Shown: positions 36,920-38,253 of the stretch, piece by piece
Numbering within the stretch: position 1 is the stretch's first letter
How the letters are laid out: each line of letters starts with the position of its first letter
Translations under genes and position numbers: made by a program
Assembly (NCBI GenBank): GCA_945876745.1
Contig: CAMCPL010000001.1
Location: 310,001 to 374,000, forward strand
Length of the DNA: 64,000 nucleotides
Direction: 5' to 3'
From: an uncultured Clostridia bacterium
Lineage (GTDB): Bacteria > Bacillota > Clostridia > Oscillospirales > Acutalibacteraceae
Notes under the pieces: generated by a model
What the model was told of the DNA's origin: nothing
Databases searched by the model: none
Seen by the model: the letters and a program-made list of their open reading frames with translations, nothing else

Positions 36920-37000
36920 ATGGATTACTTGATTGTCGCAATAATATTTATTGTTGTAGCTACGGGATACATAAAAGCAACAGAAAACAAAAAGAGATAA
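36920..37000 (+). CDS. 26-residue membrane peptide, putative type I toxin (copy 2)
   Basis: ATG at 36920 after AAGGGGGG (about 7-base spacing). It begins MDYLIVAIIFIVVATGYI, a single membrane helix, followed by a short Lys/Arg-rich tail. Its stop codon lies inside the left arm of a hairpin that terminates both this mRNA and the convergent antisense RNA. Only silent or conservative differences from copy 1. Too short for the ORF track. Confidence 0.75.
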   Translation: MDYLIVAIIFIVVATGYIKATENKKR

Positions 37001-37077
37001 TCGCCTCATAACCACACGAAAGATTATCTCTTTTTAATCATAGTGGGGCTAACCGTCTATCGGCAAGCTCCTTATCT
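36985..37077 (-). ncRNA. Candidate antitoxin RNA, module copy 2
   Basis: An RNA of about 90 nt on the minus strand from the promoter at 37084-37111 to the shared terminator. The 5' end AGATAAGGAGCTTGCCGATA matches copy 1. It overlaps the last codons and 3' end of the peptide mRNA on the opposite strand. Confidence 0.7.
36989..37036. terminator. Bidirectional terminator shared by peptide mRNA and antisense RNA (copy 2)
   Basis: AAAGAGATAATC pairs with GATTATCTCTTT; A/T runs on both sides make it work in both directions. The peptide stop codon is within the left arm. Confidence 0.8.
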
Positions 37078-37083
37078 ATTTTT

Positions 37084-37111
37084 ATTATACAACATTTTTG
37101 AGATTTGTCAA
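37084..37111 (-). promoter_or_regulatory. Antisense-RNA promoter, module copy 2
   Basis: On the minus strand TTGACA, 16 bp, TATAAT. Confidence 0.75.
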
Positions 37112-37117
37112 GTGTGC

Positions 37118-37152
37118 AAAAACAGCTTCCCAAAACGAGAAGCTGTTTTTGT
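37118..37152. terminator. AACAGCTTC-family terminator, right of module copy 2
   Basis: AAAAACAGCTTC-ccaaaacga-GAAGCTGTTTTT. Near-identical to 36766-36800. Confidence 0.7.
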
Positions 37153-37271
37153 AACAATGAGAGGGCGATTTTCATATTATGTCACTGAAAGGTAACGGGC
37201 TGTTTTAGGGTTTTCGGTGGTGTTATGCCCGCAGAATAGCCGTCAATCCTTGCCTGATGACATAATTGAGT

Positions 37272-37595
37272 TTAGTTTGACAGTCTCTCGTATTCGTCTA
37301 TTGCCTTTGTCAGCGCTATGTAGCAATATTGAAGCGAGTTGTTCATTATCTCCTTTGCGGTGCTGATATGACGTGAAACAGTTGGCTGGGACAGCTGTAA
37401 TATTTCGGCAATCTCAGCCTGATTTTTGTTGTTTATGTACTTATATCTCAGGCAAACGCTTTGCTTTTGAGTAAGCTCGTTATTCATAATAAGCGGAACA
37501 ACAGCCTGAAATGCTTTTTGCTTCGCCTTTTCTCTGTCGTAGCCGTCAAGCTGTGAATAATCCGTGCAGTAAAAGCTTTCCATAAAATCAATCAT
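37272..37595 (-). CDS. Sigma-70 region 4-like helix-turn-helix protein
   Basis: A 107-residue protein whose second half is a sigma region 4-type HTH: LTQKQSVCLRYKYINNKNQA then EIAEILQLSQPTVSRHISTA. There is no region 2, so it is either a short sigma-like regulator or an anti-/co-factor. The start at 37595 (MIDFMESFY) overlaps the end of the upstream 71-residue gene and shares its strong AAGGAGG; the track's start lies inside that gene. The operon promoter carries two perfect Spo0A boxes, suggesting a role at the onset of sporulation or stationary phase. Confidence 0.78.
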   Translation of the reverse strand: MIDFMESFYCTDYSQLDGYDREKAKQKAFQAVVPLIMNNELTQKQSVCLRYKYINNKNQAEIAEILQLSQPTVSRHISTAKEIMNNSLQYCYIALTKAIDEYERLSN

Positions 37596-37803
37596 ACATC
37601 GAATCCTCCTTGTAGTATCCAAAAAGCAGTGATGCGGTTCTTTTGCATTCACAAGCCATATCGTAGTATATTTTCATTTTTCTTCTTAGCAAAACAAGGT
37701 CGTTTCCTCTGTAAATGCAAAGAAGCGGCTTCATAGCATCTAACTTTGCGTTGAGGATATTGTATTGCTGCTCATATTCGTGAGCCAATTCATTAATTGT
37801 CAT
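37588..37803 (-). CDS. Small helical protein preceding the sigma-like gene
   Basis: A 71-residue soluble protein, starting MTINELAHEYEQQYNILNAK, predicted as a helical hairpin with heptad-like spacing and a basic LLRRKMKIYYDM segment. The family is unknown, but a small helical partner before a region 4-like HTH is an arrangement I have seen in Clostridia; it may modulate its neighbour. AAAGGAGG lies 7 bases before the ATG. It overlaps the downstream gene by 8 bp, so the two are coupled. Confidence 0.72.
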   Translation of the reverse strand: MTINELAHEYEQQYNILNAKLDAMKPLLCIYRGNDLVLLRRKMKIYYDMACECKRTASLLFGYYKEDSMYD

Positions 37804-37823
37804 CTTCTGCCTCCTTTTGAAAA

Positions 37824-37871
37824 TTCGATTAACTTGAGTGGTTCGCTAATCTATAATAGATATTAATCGAA
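37824..37871. repeat. Three copies of a TTCGATTAA-type motif around the transcription start
   Basis: TTCGATTAA (37824), TTCGCTAAT (37842) and, inverted, TTAATCGAA (37863). The last two form an imperfect palindrome over the -10 and start site, a plausible second operator. Confidence 0.4.
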
Positions 37872-37939
37872 CATTTGTATTATGTCAATAGATTCGACAA
37901 AAATAGTCCAATTTTTTTCTCTGTCAAAATTCGACAAAA
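37860..37939 (-). promoter_or_regulatory. Promoter with two Spo0A boxes for the sigma-like operon
   Basis: On the minus strand TTGACA (37883-37888), 17 bp, TAATAT (37860-37865). TTTTGTCGAA occurs twice upstream, at 37893-37902 (5 bp from the -35) and 37930-37939, both perfect matches to the Spo0A box. This is the position from which Spo0A contacts polymerase. Confidence 0.65.
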
Positions 37940-37999: not shown

Positions 38000-38028
38000 T
38001 TGACATATTGTAAAATATATACTATAAT
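38000..38028 (+). promoter_or_regulatory. Full-consensus promoter of a candidate small RNA
   Basis: TTGACA, 17 bp, TATAAT: perfect hexamers and spacing, with no gene downstream on this strand. Confidence 0.85.
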
Positions 38029-38034
38029 GAATAC

Positions 38035-38136
38035 ATAACCAAGACGGAGCCGCAACCGTCTTGGTTAACCTGTCCTCCTATAGTTTGTTATAGACAGAGA
38101 GGGAAAAGGATGAGTGTTACGCTCATCCTTTTTTCT
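38035..38136 (+). ncRNA. Candidate small regulatory RNA
   Basis: About 100 nt from a consensus promoter to a strong terminator (AAAAGGATGAG/CTCATCCTTTT plus T-run). The 5' half folds a perfect 11-bp hairpin (AACCAAGACGG/CCGTCTTGGTT). A middle segment CTGTCCTCCTATAG leaves a CCUCC sequence, complementary to ribosome sites, in or near a loop. No ORF has a ribosome site. This is the layout of a trans-acting sRNA blocking translation. No known family is recognised. Confidence 0.65.
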
Positions 38137-38253
38137 TGTGCGAACCTTTTGATTGTGCGTGTTTTTAAGAAAAATTCCGAAATGAGAATTTTTTTCGAAA
38201 ATTCGCAGAAAAATTCTCAAATGAATAAAAAATTTGGATAATTCAGATAGAAT

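Follow-up and report, generated by a model that had tools for sequence, protein, structure and literature searches.

The SOS regulon of Firmicutes has been described for DinR of Bacillus subtilis and LexA of C. difficile, and to our knowledge no two-gene SOS operon of the kind reported here is known from either species. UviA of C. perfringens, a sigma-like regulator linked to DNA damage, is a complete group 5 sigma factor. Xpf of B. subtilis PBSX is also a sigma-like regulator linked to DNA damage, and has both region 2 and region 4 (PMC10141391). In B. subtilis SigO-RsoA, region 4 is carried on a separate chain and a small partner protein is involved (PMC10028694), and YlxM/UPF0122 proteins are small, stand-alone helix-turn-helix (HTH) proteins that resemble sigma region 4. 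The type I toxin-antitoxin system tisB-istR-1 of Escherichia coli combines an SOS-type promoter with an adjoining divergent small RNA.

The locus analysed here lies in a window of 64,000 nucleotides (the whole stretch of DNA examined) from an uncultured Clostridia bacterium. It resembles the Firmicutes LexA/SOS regulon in box sequence and promoter placement, and in that its box type recurs at dinB, and in variant form at lexA, within the window's genome, but there is no gene for a repair or mutagenesis enzyme in the operon. Like UviA and Xpf, it would connect a sigma-like regulator to DNA damage; unlike them, the window protein has region 4 only, sits in chromosomal contigs and has no viral relatives found. 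The separate region 4 chain and small partner recall SigO-RsoA, whereas the partner encoded in the window has no detectable region 2. YlxM/UPF0122 proteins appear among the fold matches of the 107-residue protein, yet this protein falls below the family cut-offs and has a different partner. The adjoining divergent small RNA and SOS-type promoter are as in tisB-istR-1, although the window proteins look soluble and helical, and the small RNA persists where the operon is missing.

A first-pass annotation of this DNA had described two Spo0A boxes, a promoter, and overlapping genes for proteins of 71 and 107 residues. All of these were borne out by re-reading the window sequence, with the two TTGTCGAA boxes at 37893 and 37930 on the minus strand. 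Two features had been overlooked: the LexA-type box that lies between the -35 and -10 and, on the opposite strand, the gene for a small RNA (38039-38137). The features of the locus, in window coordinates, are as follows.

37272..37595, minus strand: gene 2, a 107-codon ORF whose only domain is a region-4-type HTH; it shares 8 nt with gene 1
37588..37803, minus strand: gene 1, a 71-codon ORF with its ATG start at 37803
37860..37888, minus strand: operon promoter of sigma-A type, TTGACA-N17-TAATAT, the same type being found in most orthologues
37868..37881, minus strand: LexA/DinR-type box AATACAAATGTTCG in the -35/-10 spacer, matching 6/8 core positions
37893..37900, minus strand: proximal Spo0A-box-like TTGTCGAA, 4 nt upstream of the -35
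37922..37937, minus strand: distal TTGTCGAA (37930-37937) continuing into TTTTGACA, and including the 15-mer TGTCGAATTTTGACA
38000..38028, plus strand: small-RNA promoter TTGACA-17-TATAAT, divergent from the operon
38039..38137, plus strand: conserved small RNA with a covarying hairpin with a AGCCGCAA loop, a CUGUCCUCCUAUAGUUUGUUAUAGACAG element and a covarying terminator hairpin

Strong matches to the 107-residue protein were found in 49 of 60 genomes of the Eubacterium coprostanoligenes group (one genus), and weak matches confined to the HTH part were found in G038 and in two genomes from other genera of the order; no clear orthologue of the operon was found outside the genus. Of the 50 loci examined, 49 have a gene 1 orthologue just upstream of gene 2, a second G040 contig being the exception. 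The 71-residue gene is the better conserved of the pair (approximately 51-84% identity to the window copy). Scanning the 71-residue alignment against the genomes of 85,462 species gave 62 loci, among them Eubacterium coprostanoligenes ATCC 51222, with the others being mostly metagenome-assembled Clostridia; this set overlaps the 60-genome genus set, with many genomes present in both. A viral origin was rejected, since the search patterns applied picked up no relatives among viral contigs; the operon sits in chromosomal contigs.

The element that is conserved in the operon promoters lies between the -35 and -10. At least 7/8 core matches to GAACNNNNGTTC were present in the promoter spacer of 42 of 48 orthologous promoters, compared with 1/48 for a control motif, and 34 of those 42 carry a perfect 8/8 match. 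In a second, overlapping set of promoters, a LexA-type box was found within 240 nt in 56/61, compared with 2/61 for the control. Genome-wide, there was no enrichment of GAACNNNNGTTC. Six of the 48 promoters failed the spacer test (L083, L084, L118, L025, L107 and L110): L118 has a LexA-type box outside the scored promoter pattern, and no convincing LexA-type box was seen in the promoters of L025, L107 and L110. The remaining two, L083 and L084 (genomes G005 and G045), have a degenerate spacer box, ATACAAATGTTCG, in common with the window, and a second LexA-type box farther downstream (8/8 and 7/8, respectively). The box agrees with the B. subtilis operator GAACN4GTTC and with the C. difficile LexA operators of recA (GAGAACAAATGTTTGT) and uvrB (AGGAACTAATGTTCGA) (PMC4234289), as well as with the operator CGAACN4GTTCG (PMC4551915). 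Judged by its sequence, the conserved control element of the operon promoters is a LexA box of the Firmicutes type.

Related boxes were found at other genes of the same genomes. The dinB promoter in the window's genome (TTGACA-tcgaacaaatgttctgt-TAAAAT) is identical in architecture to the operon promoter. Across the genus, 15 of 16 dinB upstream regions score at least 7/8 for a LexA-type box; four of these matches (AGAAC....TTCTTCA type, -18) fall at the gene start and were discounted, which leaves credible boxes upstream of 11/16 dinB genes. The lexA promoters carry a weaker variant box adjoining the -35, the ATAC left half being common to the G000 lexA box and the window's operon box, and no clear LexA-type box was seen in the recA promoters sampled. 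The LexA protein itself scores strongly in 54 of 60 genus genomes. Since the spacer LexA/DinR box is conserved, and since dinB has a box of this type and lexA a variant of it, the two genes most likely form an SOS operon, and it is considered probable that this is a genus-conserved SOS operon encoding a 107-residue regulator and its 71-residue partner. LexA would be expected to bind at the operon promoter, and the operon to be induced in the SOS response. LexA control is the better-founded half of this reading; the regulator half is drawn from the HTH domain and the operon structure.

The first-pass annotation had instead placed the operon under direct Spo0A control, in which case phosphorylated Spo0A would be recruited by tandem 0A boxes and the 107-residue protein would be a stationary-phase or sporulation regulator. 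The TGTCGAA core is recognised by Spo0A of C. difficile (PMC3485338), and spo0A and spoIIGA are found in most of the genus, so that sporulation control is possible in principle. The window contains seven copies of TTGTCGAA against 3.9 expected, which is not an enrichment (14/100 shuffles were equally high), and a same-strand pair no more than 45 nt apart, as is seen for the two perfect boxes upstream of the operon, turned up in just one of 150 simulated windows. Conservation of the boxes upstream of orthologues, which had been named as a check, was not observed: TTGTCGAA is absent from all other orthologous promoters in both sets (0/48 and 0/61), and Spo0A was rejected as a genus-wide control because the orthologue promoters lack the boxes. 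The proximal box is intact in none of the relatives compared. The 15-mer TGTCGAATTTTGACA of the distal element is matched perfectly at just two sites of the 1.93-Mb genome, in the operon promoter (window 37922-37936, minus strand) and upstream of spo0A (G000 C2:115392-115406), although this likeness between the two promoters was spotted after the fact. A related tandem element, TGTCGATTTT(T/C)GTCGA, is kept at the equivalent site in three near relatives, namely G005 and G045 (also L158 and L161, respectively) and the L159 genome. TGTCGAA is present upstream of spo0A in G000, G005 and G045, but is missing from most of the other genus spo0A and spoIIGA upstream regions sampled, for which gene starts were assigned roughly. 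Direct Spo0A control is, overall, an unlikely explanation for the operon. What stands of the earlier claim concerns the window's subclade, in which a Spo0A input atop LexA control is plausible because of the 15-mer in common with the spo0A promoter and the tandem element in the three relatives.

The 107-residue protein matches Pfam Sigma70_r4_2 (5.6e-08) and Sigma70_r4, both above the cut-offs, with the HTH at residues 39-82, and no region 2 model of Pfam or NCBIfam matched it. The earlier description of this protein as sigma-like is therefore upheld for region 4 and does not extend to a complete sigma factor, as region 2 is missing. The protein is also below the cut-offs of the YlxM/UPF0122 family, in Pfam (18.0 versus 22.7 bits) and in NCBIfam (23.2 versus a cut-off of 80). 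An AlphaFold model (pLDDT 88) has a terminal helix from residue 70 to 106. Fold comparison brought up solved sigma region 4 domains along with UPF0122 proteins and KorA, all with E above 0.001. Residues Q59, I62, Q70, V73 and H76 of the HTH are invariant among 19 sequences, and cysteines C48 and C91 are invariant in the aligned set. The one HTH domain suggests that the protein is a regulator. The 71-residue protein is modelled by AlphaFold with a mean pLDDT of 92 as a two-helix hairpin (helices 3-29 and 33-61), and cysteine C53 is invariant in its aligned set. It has no family match in Pfam or NCBIfam and no homologue of known function. We infer that the 71- and 107-residue proteins act as partners. 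A region-4-only protein beside a small, overlapping partner gene could also be a two-subunit sigma factor similar to B. subtilis SigO-RsoA, with the 107-residue protein supplying region 4 and the 71-residue protein the core-binding part. However, 20 relatives of the 71-residue protein were searched for region 2 with no match, and the hairpin model of this protein matches no solved structure at E <= 0.001. This arrangement is very improbable, and a split sigma factor was rejected on the ground that the partner lacks region 2.

The neighbouring small RNA is approximately 100 nt long, and is found by profile search approximately 130-480 bp from the operon in 47/49 loci, divergent from it in 43 and inverted in four. 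Of the 60 genus genomes, 53 carry a single full-length copy, and 38 other genomes carry none. No family match was found by a search of Rfam; the RNA is thus conserved through most of the genus and has no family in the release searched. Pair counts over 24 sequences gave 97.4% paired cells and 17 pairs changed on both sides. No shuffle reached the observed value, and slid structures gave at most 58%. By the profile used, L108 (G041) and L113 (G008) have the operon without an adjacent small RNA; in G008 the small RNA is located approximately 1.8 kb from the operon.

The position of the small RNA and its consensus, constitutive-type promoter would also suit a system similar to E. coli tisB-istR, in which a LexA-controlled message stays silent until the SOS response because a divergent small RNA, made constitutively, pairs with its ribosome-binding site. 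In many species CUGUCC of the small RNA can pair with GGGCAG, and CUUGUCC with GGACAAG, at the start of gene 1. One RNA class pairs well and the second poorly, and cognate combinations of RNA and gene 1 are no better than swapped ones (mean of -9.87 versus -9.83 kcal/mol). Beyond a single class, the start of gene 1 is unremarkable among those of other genes. Furthermore, the gene 1 product is no hydrophobic peptide, and five genomes (G002, G007, G038, G049 and G051) keep the small RNA with no operon beside it. Silencing of this type appears quite unlikely, and a dedicated antisense role of the RNA at the gene 1 ribosome-binding site is unsupported overall, the RNA having outlived loss of the operon.

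Under the LexA-controlled reading of the operon, LexA bound between the -35 and -10 would keep the promoter shut, and RecA-stimulated cleavage of LexA following DNA damage would release it, after which the 71- and 107-residue proteins would be produced jointly. The 107-residue protein would then bind DNA and regulate transcription by means of its sigma-region-4 HTH and its long C-terminal helix, the latter possibly serving in dimer formation or polymerase contact, and the 71-residue helical hairpin would partner it. A Spo0A input may be added by the upstream tandem element in the window's subclade. A further step can be proposed only tentatively, and is in our opinion doubtful: that an SOS-induced, sigma-like regulator consisting of region 4 only, together with a dedicated helical partner, reprograms the polymerase, as part of a genus-specific module with a new small-RNA family. 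If this is true, DNA damage in a gut genus would be coupled to a half-sigma-factor transcription switch, beyond repair genes. The sporulation reading of the operon is corrected here to an SOS reading, and the link between damage and the operon is open to testing in cultured species.

The window also contains a 26-codon ORF, MDYLIVAIIFIVVATGYIKATENKKR, at 36920-37000 on the plus strand, which likely encodes one membrane helix. Inverted repeats are located around the end and downstream of this ORF (36989-37153), and there is a weak match to SpF25_sRNA (Rfam) nearby, at 37057-37153. Together, the ORF, the inverted repeats and the weak SpF25_sRNA match resemble a type I toxin-antitoxin locus.
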